DNA of 64,000 nucleotides from Pelagomonas calceolata (lineage: Eukaryota; Sar; Pelagophyceae; Pelagomonadales; Pelagomonadaceae): NCBI GenBank assembly GCA_918797485.1, contig CAKKNE010000002.1, positions 4,988,501 through 5,052,500 on the forward strand, written 5' to 3'. Numbering within the stretch: position 1 is the first letter of the stretch; every line of letters starts with the position of its first letter. A program made the position numbers and the translations under genes. Shown here in pieces: positions 157 to 63,987 of the stretch. Below the pieces are notes generated by a model, which saw nothing but the letters and a program-made list of their open reading frames with translations, searched no databases and was not told where the DNA came from.

Positions 157-1129
157 ATGAGTGAACAAGTTTCAAGCCCCAGCTCCGAGCAGGCAGCAAG
201 TCCAGTACCTGCCACTGCTGAGAGCAGCCAGCCGTCGAAGGTGCAGAGATATGCAACAGAAGCGGACGTGCTCGCGCTCATGACAAACGACAAGTTCAAG
301 AAGTTCTGCAAGAAGAAGTGCGGCGAGTGGGCGCCCGCGTCTCGCATCCCTAAACGCCATCGACGCGTGATCCGCGCAGGTGCGGTTGCGTCGCCTTCAA
401 GCGCTTCGCCAAGATGTCGCCGCTCGTCGTCCGGGCGAGAGTCGGGAGCCTCTGGTGCCAAAAATGTGGCCGATTGCTGTGCGAGGCCCACCGGAACCAG
501 CACAGCTGCGAGATGGAAATGCAAGAATTGGAGCGACGGCGGCGGGTCGACGTCGACGCGATTCGGGAAGGCATCAAGCGGCAGGAGGAGGAAAAGGAGC
601 AGCGCGCCGCCGACGCCGACGCGCTCAAGCGGGCCGAGGCCGGGGCCAAGGCGGCGCGCTACCGCATGTGGAAGGACCGGCGGCGCCACGTCGTATGGTG
701 TCCGGCGTCCTTTTAACTTCTGAACATCGCGGCGACGGCGTAGAGTTTTGTGCAGCTCACGCGCCATCGCAGGCGGGCATCTCGTCGAGCGTGGCGAGCA
801 TGGTCCAGCGCTGGAGCGTCCAGGCCGAGGCGGGGCGCAAGCGCGACCGGCTGCTCGACATCTACACGTCGTGCAACCGTATCAACCTGCGGCTCTGGAA
901 CGAGGTCTCGCAGCCGGAGATTTTGAGTGATATCGACATGGACGCGTGGAAGCGGCTCTGCCGCAACTACGCCGACGCCTGCGCGCTGACGGGAATGGTT
1001 ATATTGGTCGAGGGCGTCGAGCTCGACCTGAGGCTGCCCTGGCTGCGGGACGAGGACCAGGACTGGCTCGACGCGCCTCCACCTGATGCAAATGAGGTGG
1101 ACCTCTCGACGGCGGACCCGCCAAGTTAA
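157..1129 (+). CDS. AN1-like zinc-finger protein, three exons
   Basis: Modelled exons 157..317, 380..692 and 773..1129 give 276 residues with every junction in frame. The N-terminus is Ser/Pro/Ala-rich. After the first splice the protein reads CKKKCGCVAF and then WCQKCGRLLCEAHRNQHSC, a Cys/His spacing (CxxC, LLC, HRNQHxC) like the second half of AN1 zinc fingers. A charged helical stretch rich in Arg, Glu and Ala follows. Exon 3 encodes a soluble helical domain (Trp/Arg-rich) ending in an acidic tail. Both introns are short and the first looks like an introner. It converges with the ATP synthase d gene 33 bp away. AN1 proteins often act in ubiquitin or stress pathways; that role is inference here. 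Confidence 0.6.
318..379 (+). mobile_element. Introner-like intron in AN1 gene
   Basis: This 62-bp intron starts GTGCGGCG and ends ATCCGCGCAG, followed by GTGCGGTT: six of eight bases repeat on both sides, as a target duplication would. It contains the core CGCCATCGACGCG at 355-367 that recurs in other introns. Removing it joins two halves of the zinc finger in frame. Confidence 0.7.
693..772 (+). other. Short intron in AN1 gene
   Basis: An 80-bp intron (donor GTATGG, acceptor CATCGCAG) is required because the first frame stops at 714 and the second frame is open from 380 to 1129. It carries a GCGCCATCG core but no clear target duplication. Confidence 0.6.
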
Positions 1130-1162
1130 TATATATAAGTCTTAGTAGTCCCGAGCCGCGAC

Positions 1163-4312: not shown

Positions 4313-4365
4313 TAGTTTTCCCTTCCCTAAGATAAGAACTTAGAAGCCAAAAAAACGCGGACAGA

Positions 4366-5806
4366 CTAGCCCTTCGTCGCGAAGCGCATGACGTGGTTGT
4401 GGAGCGCGGCGACGATGGACGGGTTCTGCGAGGCGAACTTCATCGTCTTCGTCCGCGAGTAGGGGTTCCGCAGCGCGAAGTACTTGACCGGCTGGTGCTC
4501 GCCCTTGTATACCTTGGACCTGTGCACAAAGCAACCAGTGAGTCTCGACGAGATCGTGGTCGCGCAGGATGAATCGAACGGAGAGAGACCGCACCGCCAC
4601 GCCATCGAGCTGGCGTCGCGTCGATGGCGTGCATTGGCGGAGACGCGCGCGACGGTTTGATTTATGCACTGCCTTGGACTGGATCGCCGAGCACTTGAAC
4701 GTGCCCGACAAGGCGTAGGCCTTGTACTTCATGCCCGTCAGCGGCTGGCCCTGGAACATGCGCACGACGATGTCCTCGTACTGCGCCTTCGAGGAGTACA
4801 GCTGGAGCACGTGGCGCTTCGCGACCGCGCCGCCGACGACGAAGAACATGCGCTGCCAGCCGGCCATCGACGACGGCGGGCCCGACCCCGCGGACTTTTT
4901 CACGAGCACCCAGCCCTTGGCCGAGTCGCAGGCCGCCATGGACTTCTCGAACACTAAATGGAGTGGCCGCGGCAGCGACTTGACGAGCTCGAGGCACCGC
5001 GCGTAGGGCAGGGCCGTCGCGTCCTGGCCGTTGATGAGGAGCAGCCTTGACCCGACGGCGACGCCCTTCTGCGCGGCCGCGCCGCCCTCGATGACCATGG
5101 TCACGACGGTCTGCTCGGGCCGCGCCTTCTTCTGCGCGGCCGTCGCGCCCGGCGCGAAGGCCGCGCGCCGCTCCAGCAGCATGCCGAGCTTGGCCTCGCG
5201 GTCGAAGGTCACGGTGTATGTCGGCAGCGACCCCGTCGTTGACGACTCCGGCTGCTGCAGCGTCAGCTGCTCGTTGCCGCCGTCCTCGGTGTACTCGGAG
5301 GCCACGGACATGGCGGACCCCCGTCGCGCCGGCTGCGACGGCTGGGACGCCTGGGACGCGGAGCCGCCGACCGAGAAGAAGTCGTCGTCGTAGCCGCCGA
5401 GCATGTCGCCGCCCGCCTGGCTCGGCGCCTGCGCCGGCGCGGCGTAGCCCATGGAGCCGCTGTTATCCGCCGGCGCGGCGGGCGGCGGCGCCGTCGGTTT
5501 CTGGTAGGACGTGTACGTCGGCCCGGCCTGGGGCACCTGGCTCGCCCCCGCGGGCGGCCAGACGGGCGCCGGCGCGGCCGGCGGCGGCGCGGCCGGCATG
5601 CCGTAGGGCTGCGGCGGCGGCGCGCCGTAGGCCGCGGGCGCGCCGTAGCCGTAGGGTTGCTGCATGCCGTACGGCTGCTGCGGCGGCGGCGCCATGGGCG
5701 GCGCCATCATCGCGGGCTTCTTCGCCGGCGCGACGGGCGCGGAGAGGCCCGCCAGCAGCTGCTCGTTGTGTTTGTCCATGGAACTGGACGTGAGGAAGTC
5801 GTCCAT
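4366..5806 (-). CDS. PDZ and PH-like domain protein
   Basis: Exons 4680..5806 and 4366..4519 give 426 residues. Residues 1-170 are low-complexity, rich in Pro, Ala, Gln, Gly and Tyr with QPYGM/QQPYG repeats. A PDZ domain spans about 196-289 (KLGMLLERR, VIEGGAAAQKGVAVGSRLLL, INGQDA). A PH-like fold spans about 296-426 (KGWVLVKKSAG, GWQRMFFVV, then after the splice KYFALRNPYSRTKTMKFAS and a final helix). It is probably a membrane- or cortex-associated adaptor. The splice is firmly set: only excision at the duplicated GTCCAAGG octamer restores the PH frame. Confidence 0.7.
4520..4679 (-). mobile_element. Introner with exact 8-bp target duplication
   Basis: The element occupies 4520-4671 and is flanked by CCTTGGAC at 4512-4519 and 4672-4679. 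Read on the gene strand, one copy GTCCAAGG gives the donor GT and the element end TTTGTGCACAG gives the acceptor. The ends are inverted repeats (CAGTGCATAAA against CTGTGCACAAA). Inside, CACGCCATCGA at 4598-4608 pairs perfectly with TCGATGGCGTG at 4621-4631. Confidence 0.85.
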
Positions 5807-6006
5807 TTTTTTCCGTCGCGCGTCGCGTAACGTAACCCCTGGGTCGCTCTCCGATAGCCTGAGAGGGCTTTTTTTTGGTGGCAGCGTCTAAGCGTCTATC
5901 GCGGGGCGCAGCGTCGGTCTACTGAAATTGCTGCTCGTTTCTAGAATCCAACGCCTGTGTAGGACAGCAGGTCTTCCAAAGCACGCGCTTGTGCTTTTTT
6001 TGGCTT

Positions 6007-6028: not shown

Positions 6029-6041
6029 GTTTACATACGAA

Positions 6042-9195: not shown

Positions 9196-10301
9196 GTTCG
9201 GCGAGGCGTCGCCCGTCCGGCGCCGCCGCGTCAGAACTCCGCGCGTCGCGGACCTGCGGGGGATGGACGGTGAGCGTCGCGGCGGGGGGCTCTGGGGCGT
9301 TAGTTTGGGCCAAATTTGTTCGTTCGCGAATTATTCGGCTTTGGGGGTTCTGGGGCATTTCGGTCTCGTCGTGTGTGTCTGTGGGCCGTTGGCGTGGGCC
9401 CGAGCCGCGGCAAGTGCGTCCCGGGCCGCCGGCGCGGCGGCGGCGCCGGGCCGCCGAGGCCGGACGCCGACGTCGGATGTGCCGCGCCCGCGGAGCGGGG
9501 GCGCCGCCGCCGGGCCGTCCGTCCGCAGGCGTACGGCGCGCGGCGCGCACGCAGAGCCACCCCGTCGGCGGCGGCGACCCAGCGCGGCGCGGCCCGCCCG
9601 CTAGGAGGCGCGTCGCTCCACCGGCCGAGGCTGCCGCCGCCGCACGCTCCGCGCCGCCGGTCGGGCTGCCCGCGCTCCCGCAGATTTCCTGCCAGCCCCA
9701 TGAATTCGCAAACGCGGGTGTGAACCGAGCGTGTCTCGCGCTACGGGCGCGATAGCACAGCTAGCTTTGCCCTAAAATTTGCCGGAGGCCCAAGTTGCCT
9801 TTGTGCCAACCCCCGCTCGAGCGCCCGTGCCGAGCTGTCGTCGCGGGCAGTCAGGACCCCTCGTCCGGCCACGCCAGGGGTCCAGGTTCCCGGCAGGGCT
9901 GCCCCTCGGGGCAATCCATGGGAAAGGCTGCCATTTGGCTGCCCCTTCGGCTCGTATCAGTCTAGTATCGTTCCAGGGCTGCACCAGCGGCTGGTAGACC
10001 CTCGCGCGAGGCGGGGCTTAGCGTCGTGCTGTTCACCCCCCGCTCTTCGCTTGACGGCCAGCCGCGCCCGGACCACGCGGACGTCTCCGCGACCGATCCC
10101 GGCGATCCAGGGGCTGCACGGCACGGGGGATTCGGGGATTCGGCGCTCGGCTTGGCGCCGAGTCAAGCCGCGCGAGATTACGAGGCGAGGCAGCCATCGT
10201 CGGGAGGACGCGACGAGCACAGTAAAGCCCCAGAATCCCATACTTGCGCCGCCCCCCAAGCTCGCTTATAAGCTGCCCCCGTGCGCGAATAACAAACGCC
10301 A
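9196..10301. other. Large divergent intergenic region
   Basis: 1.1 kb between divergent PT-rich protein genes. 9230-9710 is extremely GC-rich with long frames on both strands but no ATG-anchored, compositionally normal protein. From about 10056 onward it is the 5' half of the tandem duplication. A TTATAAG box at 10266-10272 lies just before the ATG at 10302. Confidence 0.5.
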
Positions 10302-13300
10302 ATGAAGACCGCCGTCGCCCTCGCCCTCTGCCTCGTCGCCACCGCCGCCACCAGCGACGACGAGCAGGCCCAGGCCCGCGCGCGGCTGCTCCTCCAGCGG
10401 GCCGTGGAGAAGGTGCGCGCCGGCGTGGAACAGGGCGTCCAGGGCCGCGCGCCCGCCGCGACGGCGGGCGCCGGCGGCGCCCGCCGCCTGGCCGGCTCCG
10501 CCCACGCCGGCGTCATCAGCCGGGCCGTCTACCCCGAATCGGACACGACGTGCGCGACGACGCCCATGCGCTGGGACGTCGAGATGCCGCACGTTTTCAC
10601 GGACGGCGAATGCGAGAGCTTCACCCTTGGCGGGCAGACACTCTCGACCCGCAGCACGTGCGCCTCGGCGACGAGCTACTCGAGCAACCTTTACTCGGGG
10701 GGCTCCTGCTCCGGCACGCTCTTTGATACGGAGGAGGTGACGGACGACGCCTGCGCGCCGAACTATGACGCCTCCAACTCGTACTCGTACTCGTACTCGT
10801 TCTCGTTCTCGTACGGCGACCTGGACGGCTACGCGAAGTGGGGCTGCGAGGCCATTCCCGCGGCCGACGTCGCGGCCACGATTACGTATCACATCGACTC
10901 CGTCACGTGCGACGACGCCGCGCCCAAGAACTACCAAGTCTGGCACGCGGGCTGCCAACCTCAAGGCCAGACGTCGGTTAAGTACTCGTGCGACGCGACC
11001 GATGGTTTCCGCGTCAAGTTTTACACGAACGCCGACTGCTCGGGCAGCCCGAACGCGGAAGTGACCGCGTTCCAAGCGGACACGTGCAATCAAGGCATGA
11101 AGGTGACCTGCGGGTGCGCGGCCGGCGTCGGCTGCTCCACCTCGGTGGTGGACGTGCCGACGGCGGCGCCGACGAAAGTCCCGACGTCCCAACCGTCGCG
11201 CGAGCCGACGACCAATCCGACGCTCGTCCCGACGCCCGTGCCGACATCCATGCCGTCGGCCGTGCCGACGCCCGTGCCGGCGTGCTGCGTCGAGCACCAA
11301 TTTACCGAAAACGGGGAGGTGGAAGGCACGACGTGCTACGGCGGCCGCTCGCCGTGGGACGCCGCCACCATGACCGACCTGTGTACGGCGGGCTATTCGG
11401 AGTACGGCGCGGCGGCACCCCCCTTCCGCGATTGCAGGCAGGAGGCGGTTGACTCGGGGAACTGCGGCACGTACGAGATGTGCGTGGAGTGCGAGAATTG
11501 GTGGGACTGGGCCGAGGGCAAGTACTGGGCGAACGTCGGCTACGAAGCGTGCCCCGACTGGGTGGTCGACGCCATCAACGCGGAGGGGGCCACCGGCGGC
11601 CAGTGCGCGGATTGGGTCCGCGACGGCTACTCGTATCCCTCCGGTTCGTGCGGGGACCACGCCTGGGGCGCCGATCGCGACGGATACTCCAAGTGCGCCT
11701 GGCTGGGTAGAGAGCCCTATCCCGAGGGCGACCCCGGCCTCCACGTAATGGGGGACGACGCGGAGATGTGCTGCCCGAGCGAGGACTGGAGGTGGGCGAA
11801 CGGCTGTCGCCCGGACTACTGCACGTCCTCGGGCAACGACTGCTACGCCTCGATGGACTGGGGCGAGCCGGCGACCTGCTCAAACGGCTACTTTCCGACG
11901 CCGCCGAACCCGACTACGGACGACCCCGAGTACACGTGCTGCCCGAGCGCGACCAGTTATCCCGCCGGTTCGTGCGGGGACCACGCCTGGGGCGCCGATC
12001 ACCCTTGGAGTATTTCCAAGTGCGCCTGGCTGGGTAGAGAGCCCTATCCCGAGGGCGACGCCGCCCTCTACGCAATGGGGGACGACGCGGAGACGTGCTG
12101 CCCGAGCGCGGACAGCTGCTTTGTCCTCGTGGCGTTCGAGCCCGATCCAGCCACCCAGGCAATGTTGGGCCTGCCAGGCGGGGAGTTCTCGGTGGGCTTG
12201 AACGATGCCGGCAAAAGCTACCACCCCGATGAGGGCGGAAACGTGCACAGCAACACCTTTTTCACGGTGCAAACGACGGAGGGCACGAAGATGCTTCATC
12301 GCAGCACGGACAACAACATAGTTTTCCCGGACCTGCCGGACGAGTGGACGACGGACGCGACGCGGCCACCTCACATCGAGGGGGATTTCCTCATCAACGT
12401 CGGTCTGCACGTTCACTGCCAAGACTACGCGCCGGGCGCCTTTGTGAAAGCGCTCGGGAATGTGGGCTCCGCCGGGAGCTGGGTCGTCAACGGTGACGGG
12501 ACAATTTCGCCGTTTGATGCCCCGCACCTCATTCTTGGCTGGGGCGACTTCACCACGGCTAGTGGGTCGTGCGGGGCCGACAACATGAACATGGACCCGC
12601 AACCGAACAACCTCGTCCTCCTGGACTCCGCGACGGCGCTCGGGTGCGAGGCCGCGAGAGAGGCCGATCCCGCTCAGATGTGCGCGCCGGTCTTCCGCGC
12701 GAGAGGCGTCGACTGCGATGACGCCGGCCACGACCATGGCAGCGCCTGCGACGGCATCCACCTCGAGGCTGGGATGGGCGAGGTCTGCACCTGGGTGCAT
12801 CATGAGGACCACGGCTGCCCGATCGTGAACACCCAGTTGTGGGACAGCGAGCTCTGGAGCTGCGACGATCTGTGCGGCAGGGCTGGCGGGTGGTGCGAGC
12901 GCGCGGCTTACATGACCAACAATCACTGCGGGTCGGACCAGGCCTGGGAGTACGAGCTCTCGTGCGACCAGGGCATTCGCGACATCCGGACGTGGGGTGG
13001 TGAGCCGTCTCACACCTTGTGCTGGTGCCGGGCCGACTGGTGGCACTACTACGACGAAGACGACGACGACGACGACGGGTTAGGCGGCGGCTCGGAGCTC
13101 GTCATGTCCGGCGGCCTCGTCGCGATCGGGCTCACGTTCACGGGCATCACCATCGCGACCATCGCGAACCTGATGCAGGAGCAGTGCGCCCTGGGCCCGA
13201 CGATCATCTTCGAGGCCGGCACCACCCACCCCTACTACATCAGCCCCAACCTCTGCACGATCGGCACGCACACGTACGCCTCCAAGAAGACCGTGCGCGA

Positions 13301-13409
13301 CGCGTCGCCGCGCAAGGTCTGCCGCAAGTTCTGCGAGGCCGCGTCCGCCGCCGGGAAGCTGGCGCTCAAGCACGTCCAGGGCCTGACCTGCTACTGCAAG
13401 CGGCGGTAG
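10302..13409 (+). CDS. Giant Cys-rich PT-repeat membrane protein A
   Basis: 1,035 residues, no intron. Signal peptide MKTAVALALCLVATAAT. Residues about 50-280 form a Cys-containing domain with a Ser/Tyr/Phe dipeptide run (SYSYSYSFSFSYG). PT repeats (PTKVPTSQPS, PTLVPTPVPT) cover about 283-327. Then come Cys/Trp-rich extracellular modules including a duplicated GDHAWGAD...CAWLGREPYPEGD unit, a domain beginning FVLVAFEPDPATQAMLG, an acidic run (YYDEDDDDDDG), one membrane span at about 933-958 (GGLVAIGLTFTGITIATIA) and a Cys-rich basic tail ending CYCKRR. Cell-surface or scale-type protein by architecture; function unknown. Paralogue of the next gene. Confidence 0.75.
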   Translation: MKTAVALALCLVATAATSDDEQAQARARLLLQRAVEKVRAGVEQGVQGRAPAATAGAGGARRLAGSAHAGVISRAVYPESDTTCATTPMRWDVEMPHVFTDGECESFTLGGQTLSTRSTCASATSYSSNLYSGGSCSGTLFDTEEVTDDACAPNYDASNSYSYSYSFSFSYGDLDGYAKWGCEAIPAADVAATITYHIDSVTCDDAAPKNYQVWHAGCQPQGQTSVKYSCDATDGFRVKFYTNADCSGSPNAEVTAFQADTCNQGMKVTCGCAAGVGCSTSVVDVPTAAPTKVPTSQPSREPTTNPTLVPTPVPTSMPSAVPTPVPACCVEHQFTENGEVEGTTCYGGRSPWDAATMTDLCTAGYSEYGAAAPPFRDCRQEAVDSGNCGTYEMCVECENWWDWAEGKYWANVGYEACPDWVVDAINAEGATGGQCADWVRDGYSYPSGSCGDHAWGADRDGYSKCAWLGREPYPEGDPGLHVMGDDAEMCCPSEDWRWANGCRPDYCTSSGNDCYASMDWGEPATCSNGYFPTPPNPTTDDPEYTCCPSATSYPAGSCGDHAWGADHPWSISKCAWLGREPYPEGDAALYAMGDDAETCCPSADSCFVLVAFEPDPATQAMLGLPGGEFSVGLNDAGKSYHPDEGGNVHSNTFFTVQTTEGTKMLHRSTDNNIVFPDLPDEWTTDATRPPHIEGDFLINVGLHVHCQDYAPGAFVKALGNVGSAGSWVVNGDGTISPFDAPHLILGWGDFTTASGSCGADNMNMDPQPNNLVLLDSATALGCEAAREADPAQMCAPVFRARGVDCDDAGHDHGSACDGIHLEAGMGEVCTWVHHEDHGCPIVNTQLWDSELWSCDDLCGRAGGWCERAAYMTNNHCGSDQAWEYELSCDQGIRDIRTWGGEPSHTLCWCRADWWHYYDEDDDDDDGLGGGSELVMSGGLVAIGLTFTGITIATIANLMQEQCALGPTIIFEAGTTHPYYISPNLCTIGTHTYASKKTVRDASPRKVCRKFCEAASAAGKLALKHVQGLTCYCKRR
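10772..10815 (+). repeat. TCSTAC/TCGTTC microsatellite coding Ser-Tyr/Phe
   Basis: Hexamer-like tandem run (tcgtactcgtac... then tcgttc) inside protein A, encoding alternating Ser and Tyr or Phe. It is absent from protein B. Confidence 0.7.
11640..12110 (+). repeat. Internal module duplication in protein A
   Basis: Copies at about 11640-11775 and 11961-12110 share long identical blocks (ggttcgtgcggggaccacgc, gcctggctgggtagagagcc) and encode GSCGDHAWGAD...KCAWLGREPYPEGD...MGDDAExCCPS. Protein B has neither, so the module was gained, then doubled, in A or lost from B. Confidence 0.7.
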
Positions 13410-13809
13410 TGCCCCTTTCTTTTTGCTGTCTCCCCCCCCCCTTCTGCCTCGGTCGACCCGTCTATAACTCCCCTCCCCCCTTCGGTCGTCGACTCGGACA
13501 AGTTGCGTATAAACTTTTTCGTATCATGCTTATGACGGCTCCTCGACGATGGCGTGGTCGGCGGCGTCCCCTGCGGAAAGTAAATTTCCCCCCTCCCGCT
13601 TCGATGGCCGGCCAGCCGCGCCCGGACCACGCGGACGTCTCCGCGACCGATCCCGGCGATCAGGGGCTGCCCGCACGGAGGATCCCGGCGGCTGGCGCCG
13701 CGCCGAGGCAGCAATCCGACAAATCCGAGACAACGAGACCAAGCCATCGGCGGGAGGCGTACCGAGAAGTGCATCGGGACACACCAGCGGAGATAGCAGG
13801 GCGCGCAGC
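13410..13809. other. Junction of tandem duplication
   Basis: 400 bp between the two giant genes: the 3' flank of gene A with C-runs, then the relict tail of the tRNA-binding gene (minus strand, 13530-13580), a junction near 13580-13605, then the duplicated promoter of gene B. Confidence 0.65.
13530..13580 (-). pseudogene. Relict 3' end of tRNA-binding protein gene
   Basis: Minus-strand reading gives a short peptide ending AADHAIVEEPS then TAA, matching the ADDATVEEPS end of the intact gene at 17289. Only about the last 15 codons are present; upstream sequence is unrelated. It is a by-product of the tandem duplication. Confidence 0.7.
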
Positions 13810-16800
13810 ATGCTCCTCCTCGGCCGGTGCGCGCTCCTCAGCGCGTTAGCGTGGGGGCAGCAGCGCCCCCCCCGCAGCGGGCCGAAGGCGCGGCGGTCCA
13901 AGGGGCGGCGCGGCGGCGCGCGCCGGCTCGAGGACACGACCGTGCCGACGGCCGTCCCGACGTCGCACCCAACGCCCACGTTCCAGCCGACGGCCGTGCC
14001 GGCGACCGCGCCGACGGCCGTGCCCACCGCGCTCCCGACGCCGGTGCCTACGATATTCAAACCGTCGAGCGAGCCGACGTCGGCGCCGAACTCGGTGCCG
14101 ACGTCGCCGACGTCCGTGCCGACGTTCGTGCCGACGGCCCAGCCGACGTCGGAGCCGTCGCCCGCGCCGTCGCCGGCCCCGACGGGCGTTCCGACGGAGC
14201 AGGACCCGACGCCCGCGCCGACGTCACCGCCAAGCGCGGTGCCGACGTCGCCGACGAGCAATCCGACTCTCGTCCCGACGCCCGTCCCGACATCGACGCC
14301 GACGTCGGAGCCGACGCCGACGTCGGAGCCGACGCCGACGGCGTTTTCCCGCAAGCCGACCGGCGTCCCGACGTTCGTGCCGACGTCGGCGCCAACGCCC
14401 ACGTTCCAGCCGACGACCAATCCGACCCCCGATCCGACTCTCGTGCCGACGTCCGTCCCGACTCTCCCGGCAACCGCCCCGACCTCGGTGCCGACGGCCT
14501 TGCCGACGGCCGTGCCGACGCCCCTGCCGGCGTGCTGCGTCGAGCACCAGTTTAGCGCCACCGGCGAGGTGGAAGGCACGACGTGCTACGGCGGCCGCTC
14601 GCCGTGGGACGCCGCCACGATGACCGACCTGTGCACGGCGGGTTATTCGGAGTACGGCGCGGCGGCGCCGCCCTTCCGCGATTGCAGGCAGGAGGCGGTT
14701 GACTCGGGGAACTGCGGGACCGGCGACTGGGACACCTGCGCGGAGTGTCCGGATGCGGGTAACACTGGGAAGTACTTCGCGAACGTCGGCTACTCGATGT
14801 GCCCCGACTGGGTGGTCGACGCCATGAACGCGGAGGGGGCCGCCGGCGGCCAGTGCGCGGCTTGGGTCCGCGACGGCGGGACCGGCGCATTTACGAGCAG
14901 CTGCACGAGCTGGTTATCGGCGCACGAGCGCTGCCACGACGCGCATGCCACGGGAGACGACGTGAGCTGCTGCGTCGGGAGCGACATCCGGGCGACGTGT
15001 CAGTGCGCCTCGGACTACGAGTGGTGGGACGACCGCCGGCTCTCCGCCGTCGACAAGCCGCGGCGTCTGGGTCACTGCTGCGACTACGGTGCGTACTGCT
15101 CTTGCATGGAGTCGGAGCTCGGCGCCGGCTGCACTGCGCCCGACTGCGGCGGCGACTGGGACGAGGACGACGAGGAATGCGACATCGAGACGTCCGGCGA
15201 CCGCAGCTCCTCGCCAAGCGGCACGACGAATCACGGCGCCGGGAGCGGGTGGTGCTACAGCGACCTGGACGACCACGTGGGCTGCGCGGCGTCGCCGGGC
15301 GACTGCTGGGCGATGTGCCTAGGCTACTACGGCGACGGCCTGGTGGCCATCGACTGGTGGTCGGATGAGGGCGGCCAGTGCTACTGCCAGTACGACTGCG
15401 AGTGCATGGAGGACGTCGGCGACGGCGCAGGCTACACTGTCACGCGCGACTCGAGGGTCGGCGCGCTGCCGCACGAGTGTGGCCCCGACGAGGGCGATGG
15501 CGACCATGACTGGTACGAGGACTGGATGTGGGAGAACGGCTGCCGCCCGGACTACTGCACGTCTACCGACGGCGGATATGGTTACGACTGCTGCGCCTCG
15601 ATGAACTGGGGCGAGCCGGCCACCTGCGCGAACGGCTACTCGCCATGGCCGCCGAGTCCGGGCGACGACTGCCAATACACGTGCTGCCCGAGCGCGACCA
15701 GCTGCGAGTACGTCGCCGGCCAGCCGTTCGTCCTTGTGGCGTTTGAGCCCGATCCAGCCACCCAGGCAATGTTGGGCCTGGCAGACGGGGAGTTCTCGGT
15801 GGGCCTGAATGATGCCGACAAAAACTACATCGCCGACGAGACTCCAAACGTCCACAGCAACACATTTTTCACGGTGCAAACGACGGAGGGCACGAAGATG
15901 CTTCAGGTCTGTTCGAACCCGACGTGCCCCGACGGCAGCGCCGCGACGTGCTGCGACGTCGATGGAGACTGCGAGGACGGCGACGACGACTACTGCTGCG
16001 GCGCAGACTACTACTGCTCGAACGACGGGGCCGAATACGCGGCGACCATGGGCGGCGTGCTCTGCTGCTCGCTCGGCCACGCGAGCGGCGGCATAACTTT
16101 CCCGGATATGCCGGACGAGTGGACGACGGACGCGACGCGGCCGCCGTCCATCGACGAGGACTTCCTCATCAACGTCGGTCTGCACGTTCACTGCCAAGAG
16201 TACGCGTCGGGGGCCAAGGCGCTAGCGATCGGGAACGCGGGCTCCGCCGGGAGCTGGGTCGTCAACGGTGACGGGACAATTTCGCCGCATGATGCCCCGC
16301 ACCTCGTGCTCGTCTGGGGCGACTTCACCACGGCCTCGTGCTGGGAGTCCGCGACTGGGTACATGGACCCGCAACCGAACAACCTAGTCCTCATGGACTC
16401 CGCGACGGCGCTCGGTTGCGAGGCCGCGAGAGAGGCCGATCCTGCCCAGATGTGCGCGCCGGTCTTCCGCGCGAGAGGCGTCGACTGCGATCACGCTGGC
16501 CACGACCATGGCAGCACCTGCGACGGCCTCCACCTCGAGGCCGGGGTGGGCGAGGTCTGCAACTGGGCGCACGGGGAGACGCACGGCTGCCCGATCGCGA
16601 ACGTGCCGCGGCACCGGTGGGAGTCCGACCTTTGGTCCTGCGACCAGCTGTGCGGGGAAATTGGCGGGCGGTGCAACCGCGCGGCTTACATGAGCAACAA
16701 CCACTGCGGGTCGGACGTGACCGAGCAGTTCGAATTCTCGTGCTGGGACCACGTCAACGGAATGGGGGCTTGGGTCGAGGACTTCGATCCGGAGCACGCG

Positions 16801-17205: not shown

Positions 17206-17288
17206 TGCCCCTTTCTTTTTGCTTCCCCCCCTCCCCCCTTCGAACGGTCGTCGCCTCGGACCGATTGTATAAATCTTTCGTGTCATAC

Positions 17289-39196: not shown

Positions 39197-39199
39197 AAT

Positions 39200-50974: not shown

Positions 50975-53860
50975 TTAGCGAGTCTTCGCCTTTTTCCGGC
51001 GAGGCGTCGCGTCATTCCCCCGCCGCACGACGACCTTGTGAGAGCGCCGCTGGCCCGTCGTTTTCCTACCTTTCCCCGCCTTGCGCTCCTTCTCGCTTCG
51101 CAGCGAACCGACGGACGCCCCTTGCGCGTTTCCATTGGAATCCTCGACGCCGGACAACAGGCTCCAGAGCGGCTCCGGTGCTCGACCTCTCGCGGCAAAC
51201 AAGTCAGAGTAGGCCCCGAGCACGTTCCGCACACTCTCTCCATTCTCATCGACGAACTCGATCCTATACCGAGCAATGCCTTCCTCGAGCCAGTCAGCCA
51301 ACGTATCCGCGCCACTTTGTGCTTGGGCATTGAAGACCGTGTTCCGGCAGCCCAGGTCCGCGAGCACCAGATGGTCCTGGCCGTTTTCGTCCTGTAGATG
51401 GATCTTGTGCCGCTCGCAGACGTGGCCGCAGTCCGCATACGAATTACCCTTCGACAGATATCGCGCATATAGACAATGAGACGAGTGGAAGATCGGTAAA
51501 TGTTGGTGGAGCACCGGCTCCAGCTTCATGCGTCGTTGCGGCGACAAGTTTCGCGCGAGAGACGCTATAGCCGAACCAGACAGGTCGTGTGCTGGGGTTA
51601 GTCTCTCAAGACCTTCGTCCGCGTACGCAGCGAAGGACACCGCGTTCGCAGCGTTCAATGAAAAGTCGCCTCGGATCTCCACGCCGCCGTGCCCCCTATT
51701 TAAGCTTTGGAGTTGCCCGGGCGACCTAGCTAATAAAGCGTCCGGCTTTAGGGCGATCAAGCCGTCCAGACCGCGCTCGCCTGGTAAAGTAATGCGTGGC
51801 GCGGCGACGACCGCGCGCAGACCGCTTTCTCTCACGACGTCGATGGACGCCTGATAGTTCGTCATTTCCAGGAAGTCGAGGACGACCTCGTCGACCAGAT
51901 CTGAGTGAGAAGCGAAGGCGCAGACCGCAATGACTTGTTCCGGGTCCCGTACCAGGACGGAGACGCGCGGCGTCACCGCCTCGACCTCAAGTAAATCTTC
52001 ATCGTTCAAGCCACCATCAGCACCAGCTTCGTTGCGCTTCTGCCGCGCGGCGCCGTAGTTCTGGGACGCGCTCCGTTGTTGTGGAGCCCGCAACTTTTTC
52101 AGTGACTCGACGGCCCGCCGCCTAGCCTGTTTTATGTCGCCCGCATAGCACCACCAGTCTCCTTGAATATCGACCGACACACCACCAAGGCGCCAGGGCG
52201 TGTCCCCCAGACTCCCGACCGCCTTCACAATCGTGGCAGAGGTCAGAGGCTGCGTCGCCGGCGGCTCGACTACTAAATCTTCTACTACGGAGTGCTGGCC
52301 GTCCGTCAGTTGCACGGTGAGCAGACCGTCGCGTACGGAGACGGCCACGTCCACGGAAGTACGCTTCACTGAAGATGATGATGCTAGTCTCTTGAGCTTG
52401 GCATCTACGGTACTGTCGGACGTGCGCCAGAGCAAAGCACCTTCAGACAACCAGGGCTTCGATGCTACATCCCGGCCGAAGGTCAATCTCACAAGACCGT
52501 CATTGAGTGGAGCGACGTCGTACAACGCACCGCCCACTTCGTCCTGCGCGTGGTCCGGCCCGCAGTCGATGACGACGCCGTCGCCCCGCTTCAGCCTGTG
52601 TGGACATCAACCAGTGAGTTACGTTCCGACATTTGATTTCCACACAGGGTTCAACTCTATGGCTGCGGAGGGCTCCACCACCAATTCCAAGCCCTGTTTT
52701 TTCGGGTAGACCTCCACGACCCTCCCAGCTAGCACGCCCCGGTGCCGCGGCGCGTTGCCGACGACGAGGGATTGGTGCTTGGGCCCTCTCAAAAACCCGG
52801 GCGTGAGGCCATCTCTCTCACTGTCTTGCCCGCGCGCGAAGACCTGCCTCAAGTCACTTCTGGTCACAGTTTCATCTTCTGTGGAATGGTCCCAGACCGC
52901 ATCAATAGCCTCCCTATAAGCTCTGGTGGTGGCCGCGACGTAGCGCTCGTCCTTCAACCTACCTTCGATCTTAAAACAGCTGACTCCCGCTTGAATTAGT
53001 GCGGGGACGTCGTCGAGGCCGCACAGGTCGCCCGGCGACAGCGCGTACTGGAGGCCCTCCTCCCTAGAACCGTCGACGACCACCGCATAGGGCAGTCTAC
53101 AGGCCTGGGCGCACTGGCCCCGGTTCGCGCTGCGGCCGCCCCAGGCTTCGCTGCTGAGGCACTGGCCGCTCCAGGAGATGCATAACGCACCGTGGACAAA
53201 CGCTTCCACTTCCGCGGACGTCCCTCTCGCGACAGAAGCGATTTCTTGGGTAGACAGCTCCCTTCCGACAACGACCCTCGTAGCACCCCGCTCCCGCGCG
53301 AACTCGGCGCCGTCCGCCGACGAGATGGATTGCTGCGTCGACGCGTGAATAGGTAATTCGGGCGCAACTTCTCGCGCCAGCGCCATGACGCCCACGTCCT
53401 GCACAATCACGGCATCCACCCCAGCCTCGGAGCACCTCCTTAGTAAGCGCTCGATCTCGTCGAGCTCCTTGTCGAAGGCGAGCGTGTTTAACGCCACATA
53501 ACCCTTCACTTCATTTTCGCGTAAGTACGCGATGACCTCGTCCAACTCCGCACCCGGATCGAAGTTCGTGGCCCGGGCCCGCGCGGAGAACGTCGATAAA
53601 CCAAAATAGACGGCGTCGGCGCCGTTATGTACGGCTGCTTTGAGCTGCGGCCAGCCGCCGGCGGGCGCCATGACCTCCGGTTTTTGCCTCAAGGTTATAC
53701 CGGGGCCCTTCACCTCGTCGAAGAGCTCGGGCGTCTTGCGGCGGCGCGGGTCGTCCTGTTTTGTGTTCTGCGCCTGCATGCGGGTGGTCCGTGCACCCTG
53801 CGGTAACGGCGGGGTCAGCGCGGCCGCCACCGCGCCGGCAAACAGCCATATTCTTTTCAT
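50975..53860 (-). CDS. U32 peptidase family, RlhA-like
   Basis: Exons 52656..53860 and 50975..52595 give 941 residues from ATG 53860. A hydrophobic start (MKRIWLFAGAVAAALTPPL) suggests organelle targeting. The catalytic-type domain starts PEVMAPAGGWPQLKAAVHNG, then DAVYFGLSTFSARARATNF, AFVHGALCISWSGQCLSS and GRSANRGQCAQACRLPY, the U32 signature with its Cys cluster. The second half matches the long RlhA/YdcP type, with HQHLPIFHSSHCLYARYL and CGHVCERHKIHL. RlhA hydroxylates a cytidine in bacterial 23S rRNA; a plastid or mitochondrial ribosome role is inferred. The Lys/Arg-rich tail is extra. Confidence 0.8.
52596..52655 (-). mobile_element. Minimal 52-bp introner
   Basis: Element 52596-52647: ends CTGTGTGGACATCAA and its inverted partner TTGATTTCCACACAG differ at one base. 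Flanks GCTTCAGC (52588-52595) and GGTTCAAC (52648-52655) match at six of eight. Splicing at the flank octamer (donor GTTGAACC) and the CACACAG end gives AIE|LKRGDGVVID in frame. Confidence 0.85.
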
Positions 53861-55323: not shown

Positions 55324-57164
55324 ATGGAGGTAGCACCAGCCGAGGAGCCCTGGCGCCGCGGCCTCTTCGACGACGACGATTACATGAAAGCGCCGGCGAC
55401 GCCGCCGCGACCGCCACCGGCACCAGCGTCAACGACCGACGACGCGCCGTCCAAGGCGCTGCGGGCGCTCGCGCGCGCGCTCGCGACACCAGAAAAGCCG
55501 CCGCCGCCGACGCCTCCTCCAGTGAAGCCGCCGTCGCCCGTCAACGTTCACCATGAGACGGACGCCGCGGCGGCTGCTGCAAAAGCCATGGAGTCCCGAT
55601 TTAACCACGCTACGGCGCGTTTGATGGAATCCGACCAGAGGCTCCACGCGGCCGAGAAGGAGAGAGATAGAGCTATAGATGGAGAAGCTAGAGCTTTACT
55701 TGAGCTCGAGGCCGCGACGCAGCGATGCGCCGCGGCGGAGGCCGCACGAGCGGCATCGGACGCGCGGTCTTTATTCATGGAGGCGCGGTCGCATGACGAC
55801 GGCGGCGACGCGGCGCGGCGGGCGCTGGCGGACGTGCGCAAGGAGCTCGACTCTGTAAGGGCCGAACTACTCCGGGAGAGGCACGCGCACTTTGAACGAG
55901 CGGAACCGCCCGACGCGATGGCAGAGACGTGGACGCGCGCCGTCGACCCATCCACAGGCTACGCCTACCGCTTCGACGGGAAGGGCAACTCCGTCTGGGA
56001 GGCCGCGGACCCGCCCGACGAACGAGAGGTCGAGGAGGCCTACTTTTCGACTGTTGAGGAGGAGGGTCCCCAGACAATGCTAGCGGCAACTCAGATCGAG
56101 TGCTCCCAGTTGAAAGCGCATTGTGCATCACTGCAAGCGCAGGTCGCGTCCATGCATCGCGACGCGGTCGCGCTGCGGAAGGAGTTCGTGAAGGCAACGG
56201 GCGACCGCGACGCCTGGCGCGCCGCCTGCGAGGACGCGCGGCGGCCGCCGCGCGACCCCGACGCCGCCAGCCTTCGCGCGGAATTGATGGAGGCCCGCCG
56301 CGAGCTCGAGAAGCGCGGCCGGGAACTCGCCGTTGAACGGTGCAGGGCCCAGGCGGCGGTCCGGAAGCGCGAGACTATTTTGAAACGGAACGAGGCGCTG
56401 GAGGAGGAGGTCGCGGCGCGGCGTCCTTCTTGCCATCGCTGCGCGTCGCGTCGAGTCGCGCGCCATCGTCGCGCGTCACGCAACACGCCATCGCCGCGTG
56501 TCACGGTCGAGTCGGGGGTCCAAAGTAAGTAACGACGCAGGTCGCGACGGCGAAGCGTTTGGCAGCGGAGGCGAAGCTCGCCGCGCGCGCGCGCCGGGGC
56601 TTCGACGCCCCTGATGTAATTGAGGCGCGGCGCGAGACGAAGGAGGCCCTCGGCAAGGCCGCGGATTTAGCAAGGGAGGCCGCACGCGTCGCGACGCATC
56701 TGGCCGGCGCGCGCACCGAGGCCGACGCCGCCAAGGCCGAATTAACAGATCTGAGAATCAAGCTCGCCGCGGCCGTCGAGGCGTCCACAGTGGAAAAGCG
56801 CAAGAGCTTCGCGGCGGCCAAAAACGCGGAGGCGGCGCGGGCCCAGCTGCTTAAACAAATAACAAGGGCCGACGCGCTCGCGGCCGGCAAGGCCTCGGCC
56901 GACGCCGCGGCGGCTCATTCAAAGCGCGTCGCCGAACGCGCGAAGGACGCGGCGCACACGCGCGTCTCGCGGGCCGCCGCCGAGTTCACGCGCTACCGCG
57001 AGGCCGTCGAGAGGCGCCTGCGGGACACGGCCCCGCCACCGCCGGCGGCGTTCGAGCGCATGGGCAGCGCGTCGGCGCGGCACCTTCGCAAGAAGCGCGT
57101 GTTGTCTCCTTCTGTCCACCCGCGGACGCCCGTGGCGACGACTCGGCGGGGGTATGGGCGGTAA
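55324..57164 (+). CDS. WW-domain coiled-coil protein
   Basis: Exons 55324..56409 and 56541..57164 give 569 residues. An acidic/Pro-rich start (residues 1-80, PPPPTPPPVKPP) is followed by a long coiled coil, then a WW domain (WTRAVDPSTGYAYRF...NSVWEAADPPDE at about 200-235), then more coiled coil, which continues across the splice (ALEEE|VATAKRLAAEAKL) and ends in a basic tail. WW plus coiled coil suggests a scaffold, perhaps cytoskeletal or basal-body, which is inference. Convergent with the lumenal protein gene. Confidence 0.65.
56410..56540 (+). mobile_element. Introner in WW coiled-coil gene
   Basis: 131 bp, donor octamer GTCGCGGC and downstream octamer GTCGCGAC (seven of eight match), 3' end AACGACGCAG. 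The inside holds three GCCATCG words. Splicing keeps the coiled-coil heptads in frame. Confidence 0.8.
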
Positions 57165-57209: not shown

Positions 57210-57901
57210 CTACTTCGAGATGCAGTAGCCGAAGAGCTTCCGCATGGACCCGTCGAGCTTGTCCAGTTTGGCGGTCAGCAGCGTGAGTTTTTTGGGAGTT
57301 CTCACACCCTCGTCGTTGTACTTGGACGCCGCCTCGGCCTCGGTTATGTCCTGAATGACCGCCCGCGTCAGGCGGTCGACGCCGCGCTGCGTGTCCTCGT
57401 CCCAGATGGGGGTGAGTTTGTTGAAGGTCGCGCGGACCTTGACGATGTCGTATTCCTTCTTTAGGACCTTCCCGACCTGTGTGGATATAAAACAGTGAGT
57501 GCGCCACGCGCGAAGCTAGCTCGATGGCGTGGAGGTCATGAGACGCGCCTCGACAATTTGGTTTATGCACTGTTTCCGACGTCGAACTGGTTGTCGTTGC
57601 TCAGCACCTCGCGGAGCTTCACCACGCCGACGGCGTAGGATTTGAACTCGTTCAGCGCACCCTGCACGCTGCCGCTCCGTAGCGCGTCTTCGTCGAGCAC
57701 AGCGTCGGCCGCCTTGACGATGTCCATCGAGTAGACGCCCTCGTAGGCGTTCGCGGCCGTGCCGATCAATGCGGCGGCGCCGCCAAGGAGCGCGTTGCCG
57801 AACCCTCGTCGCGCTACGGCGTGCTTTTGGGCGCTGGGCACTGACACAGGTGCCAGCGCCGTGGCGGAGCCAAGCATCAACGCGAGGATCACTCGCTGCA
57901 T
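57210..57901 (-). CDS. PsbQ-like thylakoid lumen protein
   Basis: Exons 57581..57901 and 57210..57476 give 195 residues from ATG 57901. Targeting is bipartite: signal peptide MQRVILALMLGSATALAP, transit-like segment, then a twin-Arg lumen signal (ARRGFGNALLGGAAALIG, ending TAANA before YEG). The mature part of about 145 residues is all-helical (DIVKAADAVLDEDALRSG, KLREVLSNDNQF, KVLKKEYDIVKVRATFNKL, LTRAVIQDITEAEAA), like the four-helix PsbQ'/Psb31 extrinsic subunits of photosystem II in red-lineage algae. Family assignment is by architecture, not a decisive motif. A GTCGGRAA octamer marks the splice. Confidence 0.55.
57477..57580 (-). mobile_element. Introner with 8-bp target duplication
   Basis: Element 57477-57572 (96 bp) flanked by TTCCCGAC (57469-57476) and TTTCCGAC (57573-57580). 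Inverted ends CTGTGTGGATATAAA and CAGTGCATAAACCA. Gene-strand 3' end is CTCACTG...ATCCACACAG. Splicing joins FDV|GKVLKKEYD in frame. Confidence 0.85.
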
Positions 57902-58218: not shown

Positions 58219-59666
58219 ATGGCAAAAATGGGCAGCAAAAAGAAACACAACAAGCAAGAGCAGCCGCCGCGACGACCCACCTGGCTCATCGCCGCTGCCG
58301 TCGCCGTCGCCGCAGCCGTCGCCGCGGTCGTCGCGCAAAGATCGGATCCCTTCCGCGACCTCGACGACGCGGCGGTGGCAACCGCGGCCTTTGAGGCCCT
58401 CCGGGACGCTCAACCTAAACGAGCGAGGGCCGCCTTCGCCGAGCTCGTCACCCGCGACGCCGACGACTCGTTCGCCTGGTCGTGGCGAGGGCGTGCCGAG
58501 GTCGCGCTAAGCGACTTAGATGCGGCCGAAACATCCTATACGCGAGCGCTGGAGACGCTCCCGCGGCGCCTGTTTGATGAAGACGACAACGAGCGGCGAA
58601 CTATGAAAACAAGGCGCGCACAACTCATGTTGGATCTGGAACGCGTCCGAGGCCGGCTCGAGGCCCGAAGCGCTCCCATAAACTCCGTGACATATCATGA
58701 GATGGAGAGGAGGCACTGGCGCGACGTTGTTCCTAGTGACGAACCCCTCATCCTCACCGGTTTCTCCACCGTTTTAAGTTTGGACCTCATCACGGACCGC
58801 TGCGGTTCAAAACAAGTGAGATCGCGACGGCGCTCCCCGAACTCGACGGCCTGGGCCGCCATGAATGAAGGTGAAGAGACGACCATCTCCGAGTTCATTC
58901 ACTCTCAGCAAAAAGACGCCGCGGTCTTCGACTGGCCGTTGCAGTACTGCCCCGATCTCCTTTCAGAAATTGAGGTGCCGCCCTTCGCGGCCCTCGATCA
59001 TGTGGCGACGGCGTACGGCCCATCTTTATTTATATCCTTCTCTGCCAAGGGCGGCGGCCCGCACGTCGATAGTGGTAGTACGAAGTTCTGGCAGCACGTC
59101 CATGCTGGAAGGAAGGAGTGGTCGGCGGCCGGCGTCTCTGAACTTCGTGGGGCGCCTAGACGCCATCGACGCGACTCGTCCCTCGCAGGCGCGTCGCGTC
59201 CGTGCGGGACTGGCCTAGGTTGTTTGCCACGGATGACAACTGGAGACGGGCCTTCTTCCGCGACGCGCGGTGTTCTGGCATTTTTGGGAGTGTGCCGGCG
59301 GAATGCGACGACGGGTTTGGTGCGGCGCCCGTGGATTTGTTTGATGAGAGCGCTCTCCATAAAACGACGGTGCGGGAGGTCTGGCGCGGCGCCGCGCTAC
59401 CGGGCGAGGTCGTCTACATTCCCATGAACGCGCCGCACCAGGTCCGCAACGCGCCCGACGAGCCCACAATTGCGGTATCGATGAATTATGTCGATGGGGG
59501 CAACCTGGAGGCGGCGCGCGCGGCGAGTTGGGCGGCGCCGGCCTACCACCCGAAGTGGCTCGCGCGCCTCAAGGTGCACGGAAGGGCCGTGCCGGGGTCG
59601 CGGGCGCCGTGGTACGCGCGGCAGCGCATCGCGCTTGCTTCTGACGAGCAGTGGGTGGGGGACTAG
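58219..59666 (+). CDS. Membrane-anchored JmjC/cupin hydroxylase
   Basis: Exons 58219..59120 and 59189..59666 give 459 residues. A basic start and one membrane span (WLIAAAVAVAAAVAAVVA, about 21-40) make a type II anchor. A TPR-like helical pair follows (ARAAFAELVTRDADDSFAWS, AAETSYTRALETLP). The JmjC/cupin_8 domain carries iron ligands HVD (His282, Asp284) in GGGPHVDSGSTKFWQHV and the distal His in PGEVVYIPMNAPHQVRN (about 384), so Fe(II)/2-oxoglutarate hydroxylation is likely. The splice restores GRKEW|RVASVRDWPRLF. Substrate unknown, probably a protein in the ER/Golgi lumen. Confidence 0.7.
59121..59188 (+). mobile_element. Introner-like intron in JmjC gene
   Basis: 68 bp, donor TG|GTCGGC, 3' end CGTCCCTCGCAG, with the CGCCATCGACGCG core. 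Flanking octamers match poorly (three of eight), so the duplication has decayed or was absent. Confidence 0.65.
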
Positions 59667-61094: not shown

Positions 61095-62588
61095 ATTGTA
61101 TGGAGGGGGAGGATATAGTATGCTACTACGTTTACTTAGTGACTCGCCCGAGTCGCCCCCCGCGCTCTACTTCCAGTCGACGTAGTGCTCGAGCGTCAAG
61201 CACGCATCGACGACCGACATGTCGTTCGAGTCGTTCGGCGAGTCCCAAATGAACCGCGCTACAAGGTTCGAGGGGGCGTTCCACCTCAAGACCAACCCGC
61301 CCGCCACCCGAGTCGGCACCCGAGTCCAGAACCGGAGCCGACGGCCCGCGCCCGGAGGGCGGGAGAAAAATTTTACGAGACGCTTCCCGAGTTTATGTTC
61401 GTTTCCACCCGTTTGTTGAGGGTAGATTCCATCTAGGCCGCCTGGGCGGGGGTGAGCTATGTTAGATGGTCTGTCAGAGCCTCGCGATTCGGCGAATCCG
61501 CGACTTCACGTTTATATATAAAGGGGCAGCTATTCCAGATCCGCGAGTATCAGCGACGCCACCATCCAGATGGACCATAACGCCGTTGTTCTATTCACGA
61601 TCAACCGACTTGCCCGTTCTCCGCGGACGACGGTGCGGAGACGGAGCACTGGAAAGGCCCCAGACCCGTGAGTTATGAAATAAAATTGAGTTTCAGGCGC
61701 TTCGGTTCCGGGACGGGCCAGCCAACCGGCCTGAACGTCTACTACATTGCTCCGAGACCCCAAGATGCTCGGCGCGGGTCGTCGGTCTCGCGGGCCCAAC
61801 ATCTTGCTTATATGAGCACGACACCCGGATCTGCGACCATCAGCCCGTGTACCATCGCCATGGACCATAACGCGATCATTTGTTTCATGACCGACGGACT
61901 TACGCGAGGTCCAGATAAAGATGTTCAGGTCCCGAGCGTGGGCAGCCAAAAGTACCCTTCTTATAATGTAGATGTCATATACTCGTAGTTGACTATCGCT
62001 GGGGTAGTATGGGGTCCAACGAGACCGCTACGGCGACTACTGGGGGGCCTCGGGTAATTGACGTTTTTGACGGGAACGGGGCGCCATCGGGTCCAAATTG
62101 CACACTTTTTTCGGGGGTAGATCGGCTCCTGGAGGCCTCTCGGGGTAGGTCTGGTGGTGGGTAGTCGGCTGTACCGCATAAGCCAGCGCTCGTGCCCTCC
62201 GAGGGCTCTGGAAGCCATTGCCAAGTAATTCATGGTCAAATGAGCCGCAGTGATGAGAGAATCGGTCGATTATGCCCCGAGCCCGGGCGCATGCGCTGTA
62301 GGCGCTTGCGCACGTCTACTACCGACCAAAAGCGACCCCCGAGAGACCTCCGGGCCACGCCTCGACAGGATTCCACCGACGCGGCCGTCATGGTGGGACC
62401 GTCAATATCGCGAATTAAAAAAATTATTTTTTCCGCCCCCCAGTAAGTGTCCCACCGATCTCTTTGAACCATGAACGAACGGAACGATAGTCTAAACACG
62501 AGCATGGCGTTTTTGCCCGAAGTTTCAAAAGCGGTAAAACTTGAACGGGTTGTGTGGATCTAAAATTATGAATCACGTATAGTTACGC
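61095..62588. other. Gene-poor stretch with decayed repeats
   Basis: 1.5 kb of lower, uneven base composition. No ATG-anchored ORF above 60 codons looks real. It holds a diverged direct repeat (about 61540-61615 and 61830-61905, sharing ATGGACCATAACGC) and an inverted repeat (GGAGGCCTCTCGGGG near 62128 against CCCCCGAGAGACCTCC near 62336). Confidence 0.5.
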
Positions 62589-63987
62589 TTACGATTTCTG
62601 GCGCTTCGCGTTTTCCTCATCCTTCACAAGCTGCTTGGCGACGGCCTGCACGTCGGCTCGGCATTCAGGGTTGCGGCGGAGCAGGGAGGCGCGCGCGATG
62701 GTCTTGGGCTCCATTCTCTGCCTCAGCACGTTATTAATGAAGGACGTGTCCCGGAAAGTGCGCTCGTTGCGCGCGGCCGCGGCGACGCCGCCGAGGTAGG
62801 CCATGGCGGTGACAGCTATATAAGGCATCGCCCGACACGCACCGTCCATTTTGGGCTTCTTCTGGAAGGTCGCTAAATCGAATTTACCCCTCATCCAACC
62901 CACCAAGGGATCAGCTGCTTTCCGTTCACCATCAATCGCCATGAGTGGGAATTCTTGCATGTTCAAAACGGGCTGGTTCAAGTACCTGTGAGAGAACGCG
63001 TTCCAGCGGAGCGAAGCCCTCACTCTCTCAAAATCCCGTAAAATACCGCGCCGTGGCCGACGCATCGACATCATTAGCCGCCCTCGTAGTAGCACTAGGC
63101 TTCAGCGTTGTCGGCTGTTGGCCCGCGTCGTCACCAGGAGCACCTCGCTGCCGCATCCTTGCAGCAAAACCAGACCGCATAGACGTCTGGCGCGGCGGCT
63201 GCACGGTCGGTGCAACCGGTGGCGGCGCAGGAGCTGTGGCCGGAGCCGGAGCCGCCGGGGCCCGGGTCTGCTGAAAAAAGTTATTAGTGATAGGTCGTGC
63301 GTTGTGGAGGGCTTCATCATTTTCAATTGCCTTTGTCAGTCGAACCTTCAAAGCAGCAACCGCATCGTCGCAAACAGTTTGCCAGTTGGTCGTGTACTGC
63401 GGATCGTCTATTTTATTCTGAAGGATCTGGAGGTCGTCGAAGAATTGACGCTTCAACCGCGGATCTACAATGATCGTTGCCGCCTCGACGGGCGACATCT
63501 CACCAAATACAAATTGCTTGAGCTTCTCCACCGTCGTGCTCAACATTGGTTTTGCGATGGCGTCGTCCTCGTATGATTCCAGCGGAACGTCTTCCTGTTC
63601 AAAGGGATTCACTACTTTAGGGCAGCTGATGCTGCTGCTAATCAATTCCTCGAGCACATACATCATCAAGACGCGCGCGACGCTCTTCGTATTATACCTA
63701 AGCGGGAAACCTTCACCGAACGTCGCGTGCCCCCTGAAGCCGCACCAGGACCTCTCCGGACCGCGGGTCGGCGCAGTGGCGGCGTGCGGTCGCGGCGACG
63801 GGTCGAGGCGCCGCCCCACGACTAGCGACGTGCCCCGGGCTCCGACGGAGACGCGCCGACCGAAACGCGGCCCAAACGCGCGTATCGCGGGGCTCACGCG
63901 ACCCCACCGACGCGGTTCGATTGGTGAAAGCTCAGTTTCTGACTCCGAGAACTACTCCTCGCCCTCGAGATATTTTTGAACGTCCAT
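62589..63987 (-). CDS. hAT-transposase-like C-terminal half, possibly cut by window edge
   Basis: Exons 63956..63987, 63047..63733 and 62589..62985 give 371 residues in frame. The segment AATIIVDPRLKRQFFDDL resembles the xAxxLDPRfKxxfF region after the RNase-H-like core, and the C-terminus (DPLVGWMRGKF, then AAARNERTFRDTSF, RQRMEPKTIARASLLRRN) follows the hAT dimerisation domain pattern DPLxWW...ERxFSxAG...RxRLxP...LLxxxN. A Pro/Ala-rich linker separates them. The DNA-binding and DDE parts are not in this window; the frame stays open to base 64000, so the 5' end may lie beyond. Could be a transposon copy or domesticated gene. Confidence 0.5.
62986..63046 (-). mobile_element. Introner in hAT-like gene
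   Basis: 61 bp, donor octamer GTATTTTA and downstream octamer GTACTTGA (six of eight match), 3' end TTCTCTCACAG. Removal joins ATAR|YLNQPVLNM in frame. Confidence 0.7.
63734..63955 (-). other. Probable first intron of hAT-like gene
   Basis: 222 bp, donor GA|GTAGTTCTC, acceptor GCGGCTTCAG. Inferred because the long frame lacks an ATG and the short upstream exon (MDVQKYLEGEE) joins it in frame. No target duplication seen. Confidence 0.4.

Follow-up and report, generated by a model that had tools for sequence, protein, structure and literature searches.

The DNA considered here is a 64-kb stretch of the Pelagomonas calceolata genome (contig 2, 4988501-5052500), which as a whole is called the window, and its minus strand carries four introns that belong to one repeated family, each with a CACTGG-type end at its 3' side. 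A first-pass annotation of the window had placed 19 introns and had described seven of them, flanked by matching octamers, as introners—that is, introns made of a transposon whose 8-bp target duplication supplies the splice donor. The four introns of the repeated family, all among those seven, are listed below with the joint open frame in amino acids (aa), the coding score as a log-likelihood ratio (LLR), and the number of BLAST matches, counted over the DNA gathered for the analysis rather than over the whole genome.

4520 to 4679, minus strand: introner copy, a 160-bp intron; frame 299/50 aa, LLR 40.2; 49 BLAST matches including itself.
45264 to 45378, minus strand: introner copy, a 115-bp intron; frame 299/204 aa, LLR 20.4; 83 BLAST matches including itself.
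52596 to 52655, minus strand: shortest introner copy, with an intron of 60 bp, located within a peptidase U32 gene; frame 299/299 aa, LLR 25.4; 81 BLAST matches including itself.
57477 to 57580, minus strand: introner copy, a 104-bp intron in a PsbQ-like gene; frame 140/88 aa, LLR 49.6; 30 BLAST matches including itself.

In the 4520 intron, the element proper occupies 4520-4671, with the octamer GTCCAAGG upstream at 4672-4679 and the kept GTCCAAGG at 4512-4519 (8/8); its 5' end is the variant CAGTGCATAAATCAA, and its 3' end is CACTGGTTGCTTTGTGCACAG. The 45264 intron lies between two copies of GCGTGACC, at 45371-45378 and 45256-45263 (8/8), and has a GC donor, a 3' end reading CACTGGTTGATATCCACACAG, and a decayed 5' end. 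The octamers of the 52596 intron, GTTGAACC at 52648-52655 and GCTGAAGC at 52588-52595, match at 6/8, with both inverted ends of the element present, and those of the 57477 intron, GTCGGAAA at 57573-57580 and GTCGGGAA at 57469-57476, match at 7/8, with a variant 5' end as at 4520. Octamer pairs matching at six to eight of eight positions were indeed found at all seven of the originally described introns, and in each, cutting where the upstream octamer begins and directly behind the terminal AG keeps one octamer, just as had been reported. In six of the seven, joining produced a long open frame with a positive coding score; the result for 318 was modest (LLR 2.7).

BLAST with family copies from elsewhere in the genome recovered these four introns, with 0 matches in a reversed-window control, and in addition recovered a fifth, decayed member outside the seven.

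33530 to 33780, minus strand: decayed introner in a dynein heavy chain gene; BLAST match with copies from outside the window, E 1.5e-6.

The 3' end of this copy agrees with that of the family at 15/21 positions, and there are internal matches and octamers matching at 4/8 (GTATCGCC / GACTTGCT); its 5' border is a choice, because the join is one among several open joins. The dynein gene itself consists of three long frames (21479-36286, minus strand). As to the other host genes, the PsbQ-like label was given by a Pfam match at E 0.0029, under the family cut-off, and in the PDB the PsbQ-like protein, once spliced, had no match at E<=1 and the spliced U32 protein had weak matches only. RNA folding showed the 60-bp intron at 52596 to close on its own ends (z -2.35), whereas the stability of the 160-bp intron at 4520 was not clearly above that of shuffled sequences (z -1.06).

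The family extends throughout the genome, which was searched as 32,445,274 bases in 8 contigs; P. calceolata RCC100 has been described as 32.4 Mb comprising six nuclear contigs, a plastid, and a mitochondrion (PMC9481584). The terminal 21-mer, at up to 3 mismatches, was found 669 times forward and 607 times reverse (1,276 matches), and the reversed pattern 0 times. This corresponds to one terminal match roughly every 25 kb, and clear introners in the window number 4 in 64 kb, about one per 16 kb. The earlier figure of one per 3.4 kb describes how introns as a whole are spaced rather than introners, and the statement that most introns of the window are introners is not supported, since seven of 19 are so described by the first-pass annotation's own count, and four of 19 belong to the family by repetition. 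Exact-pattern scans of viral contigs for the family gave 0 matches.

Copies were gathered from a continuous 264-kb stretch, made up of the window and a further 200 kb, and from 30 loci that were the top matches to a single 3' end, with octamers matching at 6/8 at least. The 41 pairs so obtained were reduced to 40 copies, including the 52596 intron, by dropping one 364-bp composite pair (L010), at which two introner copies lie 70 bases apart (1339-1703). The 20-base flanks of the 40 copies are all different. The element ends are CTGTGTGGAAATCAA and TTGATTTCCACACAG, forming terminal inverted repeats of 15 bp that read ..CACACAG outward at both sides; the commonest length is 203 bp (6/40), with 13/40 copies measuring at least 195 bp and short forms, many internally deleted, reaching down to 52 bp. 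When end pairs were taken without the octamer condition, 39 of 47 nonetheless showed octamers matching at 6/8 or better (23 with 8, 14 with 7, and 2 with 6), as did 9 of 11 from the continuous 264-kb part, where similarity played no role in the choice; shuffled pairing of left and right octamers gave a mean of 3.1/8 over the 40 copies, themselves pre-picked at 6/8 or better. A de novo search of the 264 kb for terminal inverted repeats with a duplication gave 98 matches, compared with 9 and 10 in two Markov controls; most were GC-rich or simple repeats, and the CTGTGTGG family was the sole one recognised.

Likeness among the 13 copies measuring 195 bp or more runs from 86 to 97% (median 92%), with no identical pair, and the suggestion of a recent or continuing burst is not supported. 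Rather, this degree of likeness, together with imperfect octamers in some copies and the decayed member in the dynein gene, reads as a past burst with later decay. Separately, one introner end was found with an identical flanking octamer and an identical best upstream match at C3:118777 and C6:3790727 (L004 and L008), and this pair probably reflects the end duplication that PMC9481584 reports for contigs 3 and 6.

A usable donor—GY at the start of the duplication or RC at its end—is present on at least one strand in 40/40 copies; the number expected to lack it on both strands was 27.6, and 0 do. The coding strand at each insertion was called by a codon model from 112-120 bases on each side, trained on 53 long frames; the model was correct for 372/400 test pieces, which were taken from the training frames themselves. 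For copies with a donor on one strand only, the host gene was observed to lie on the donor strand in 25/27 (reverse 15/16, forward 10/11; Fisher p=1.4e-5). Because the donor strand tracks the gene strand in this way, one element appears to serve as an intron in both orientations, a use overlooked in the first-pass annotation. In the 38 of 40 copies whose coding strand offers a usable donor, to which the orientation, frame, and donor counts refer, 24 are antisense to the gene and 14 sense, one of the latter (L020, 92 bp) being undecided in its own orientation. These numbers bear on the proposal, made for fungal introners, that introns spread by reverse splicing of RNA, with the octamers arising from target choice. 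Reverse splicing would explain repeated introns with sharp borders, but one RNA would not yield both orientations, and neither the inverted ends nor the 8-bp duplications in 39 of 47 pairs would follow from it; it is so improbable here as to be nearly negligible.

The donor is GT in 28 and GC in 10 of the 38 copies. Excision leaves 34/38 frames stop-free, retention would shift or stop the frame in 35/38, and intron phases 0/1/2 are distributed as 13/10/12 over the 35 copies scored. Intron lengths of 206-214 bp, found in 12/38, resemble the published peak near 210 bp in the P. calceolata gene models (16,667 genes, with 0.45 intron per gene), a peak compared there to the introner elements of Aureococcus anophagefferens (PMC9481584).

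Homology across the junctions was assessed by PDB alignment for four of the 40 junction proteins, selected for their conserved look, and by Pfam scan for ten of the 40, selected by eye. The spliced Trp-tRNA synthetase (L030; antisense, GC donor) aligned to 1o5t at E 1.6e-44, and the spliced kinesin (L027; antisense, GT donor) aligned to 7a3z, both with no gap within 10 residues of the junction, and a Pfam stretch crosses the junction in 6/10 of the proteins scanned. Intron-free paralogues were seen in two cases (the pairs c33/L014 and c30/L032), a kinesin (L014) and a phosphatase (L032), both too distant to reveal the octamer, most other junction-spanning matches being those of a copy to its own locus; the kinesin paralogue covers the junction of L027, with a one-residue gap about five residues before it. 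One could suppose that the copies are ordinary miniature inverted-repeat transposable elements (MITEs) that are never spliced and are either tolerated in or near genes or inactivate them, given that splicing is predicted from sequence and that in 3/38 copies retention would leave the frame unshifted and free of stops. This is very unlikely, as the donor strand follows the coding strand, every copy offers a usable donor on at least one strand, the Trp-tRNA synthetase and the kinesin are whole only once the element is excised, and the published intron-length peak lies near 210 bp (PMC9481584).

The duplications may also carry information about the transposase. Those of the form GY...RC make up 13/40, compared with 4.1 expected under the requirement of one usable donor (p=1.3e-4), and because one-way splicing would not be expected to produce such symmetry, the excess points to the transposase, whose duplications would lean to GYNNNNRC more than splicing requires, in the manner of the hAT target bias. 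P elements likewise have a palindromic 8-bp target site. For Hermes, a hAT element, a strong preference was reported within the 8-base duplication, for T as the second base and A as the seventh (PMC8721813). The family may resemble hAT MITEs in this, as its 8-bp duplication is biased at the same two positions, the difference being that here the second base is T or C and the seventh tends to be A or G. Profile searches for KDZ (PF18758) and the P-element RNase H (PF21787) gave 0 matches in the genome, and the control genomes were likewise silent, so these two nulls are uninformative.

Several observations weigh against reading the copies as spliced, mobile introners. Octamers matched at 2-5/8 in 8/47 end pairs, and because 30 loci were chosen as top matches to one 3' end, intact copies are favoured and intactness is overstated. 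By coding score, 2/27 one-donor copies lie on the wrong strand, one by a weak difference (1.8) and the other by a strong one (25.5), and 4/38 frames still contain stops after excision. Restoration is not clean in the inositol 5-phosphatase (L024; sense, GT donor), whose alignment with 3mtc has a single-residue gap five positions ahead of the junction and whose alignment with its intron-free paralogue L032 has one exactly at the junction, and the PDB alignment of XRN (L018) stops three residues beyond the junction. The support for splicing comes from strand, frame, and homology, all of them properties of the DNA sequence. Lastly, no autonomous element was found: the one match in the genome to the hAT dimerisation domain (PF05699) lacks matching ends within its 3.2-kb locus, which does not take in the N-terminal side.

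With these points taken into account, the four introns of the window are very probably copies of one non-autonomous introner family of the MITE type, splice-ready in either direction. The element would be a non-autonomous DNA transposon, mostly of 203 bp, that inserts with an 8-bp duplication and moves by means of a transposase supplied in trans, presumably a hAT-like enzyme with a symmetric GYNNNNRC target preference. Whichever way it is transcribed, its far end would act as a ..CACACAG acceptor, with the donor, GT or GC, taken from the opening dinucleotide of the duplication copy upstream. Excision of that upstream octamer together with the element would then leave one octamer and hence the original coding sequence, and the copies may well be spliced in this way, with insertions lacking GT or GC on the coding strand presumably purged. 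At many insertions, a palindromic, hAT-like GYNNNNRC preference combined with symmetric CACACAG ends would equip each strand with both a donor and an acceptor, making the element a ready-made intron in either orientation. The chances seem about even that intron gain was in this sense largely a matter of transposase chemistry, rather than of splice signals evolved to work one way.

For the other three octamer-flanked introns, the situation is less clear.

318 to 379, plus strand: putative intron, 62 bp; octamers 6/8; joint frame 54 aa left and 111 right, LLR 2.7.
56410 to 56540, plus strand: putative intron, 131 bp; octamers 7/8 (GTCGCGGC / GTCGCGAC); frame 300/207 aa, LLR 30.6.
62986 to 63046, minus strand: putative intron, 61 bp; octamers 6/8 (GTATTTTA / GTACTTGA); frame 299/131 aa, LLR 11.3.

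The duplication-donor mechanism first put forward for all seven is well supported by sequence for 4520, 45264, 52596, and 57477, as well as for the 40 genome copies, with the membership of these three unproven; they may be decayed introners, or their octamers may have arisen by chance from the picking of matching donors, a possibility that would leave the other four unaffected. Their 3' ends are without close relatives, giving at up to 3 mismatches, themselves included, one genome match each for 62986 and 56410 and three for 318, both extra matches of the latter carrying 3 mismatches. Furthermore, of 2,098 AG acceptors sampled in the window, 20% have a GT or GC 50-250 bases upstream with an octamer matching at 6/8 or better, and 13% also an open joint frame; at this rate per acceptor, the three are not individually separable from chance. 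On the other side, 56410 combines 7/8 with a strong frame, and 318 weakly matches a family copy internally (30 bp, 83%, E 0.004). Finding three such pairs among the 15 further introns has p=5e-4 if donors are taken as fixed, but p=0.04 if five donor choices are allowed for each. On balance, chance is slightly favoured for these three.

The gene containing the 62986 intron (62589-63951, minus strand) was also considered as an autonomous hAT partner of the family, which was not supported. Its C-terminus looks hAT-dimerisation-like by eye, and a TIR-like CCACACAA ends at 62550, less than 40 bases past the stop codon. The whole spliced protein matched no Pfam family at E<=1; a piece of it gave a weak hAT-like RNase-H match (E 0.07, 13.8 bits, compared with a cut-off of 27), and in the PDB it came closest to a capsid protein (E 0.003). 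Among the matches listed (the best 100 of 120, with contig 2 apparently complete), no second end of the CCACACAA type lies near the gene, and a genome search with its C-terminal exon returned that exon and nothing else.

Weaker BLAST matches to the family occur in the window at 7343, 40180, 58201, and 59150, the last of which (59150-59196, plus strand) has the internal core of the family (CGCCATCGACGCGAC) within a frame and is possibly another decayed introner. Elsewhere in the window, a pair of long frames at 10032-17324 (plus strand) is duplicated in tandem about 3.2-3.8 kb apart, with blocks 77-99% alike, and comes with an array of degenerate 12-bp repeats near 13.9-14.5 kb.

The origin of new spliceosomal introns is a long-standing question, to which this family is relevant because it allows two forces to be distinguished within a single genome, namely the target preference of the transposase, seen in the GY..RC excess, and selection for splicing, seen in the donor strand following the gene strand. 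In addition, use in both orientations and the occurrence of a GC donor in 10 of 38 provide clear tests of the minimal needs of a new intron. Introners of Aureococcus anophagefferens were reportedly described by Huff, Zilberman and Roy in 2016 as a short transposon with an 8-bp duplication co-opted for one splice site, giving introns of about 200 bp. Compared by description only, they and the P. calceolata family are alike in occurring in a pelagophyte and in combining a short transposon with an 8-bp duplication. In maize, Ds elements, which belong to the hAT group, are spliced out with splice sites drawn from their ends and the duplication; Ds represents single insertions, whereas here an intron family extends genome-wide.

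Aureococcus introners have further been described as having direct repeats and terminal inverted repeats of constant length (PMC7789003). Among the families of Gozashti et al. (2022; PMC9860276), the same combination is found of a target site duplication with terminal inverted repeats, a 3' splice site in the element, and a duplication-derived donor (the type of their Fig. 2B), and GC donors are common in some families (0 to 50%), as they are here; the method passage of that paper allows for insertions in opposite orientation, and its main text does not contain the name 'Pelagomonas'. In their Aureococcus sp. family 4, both splice sites lie in the element and 12 bp are added to the transcript, whereas the P. 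calceolata family need add nothing. In the open-licence literature, a search on introners found PMC9481584 as the only paper for P. calceolata, and in the passages covered neither it nor the other papers were seen to describe, for this species, a donor supplied by the duplication, use in both orientations, or a GYNNNNRC preference. Overall, the introner type is already known, and what the P. calceolata family appears to add is that one element serves in either orientation, that a sizeable share of its donors are GC, and that its insertion targets show signs of a symmetric preference.

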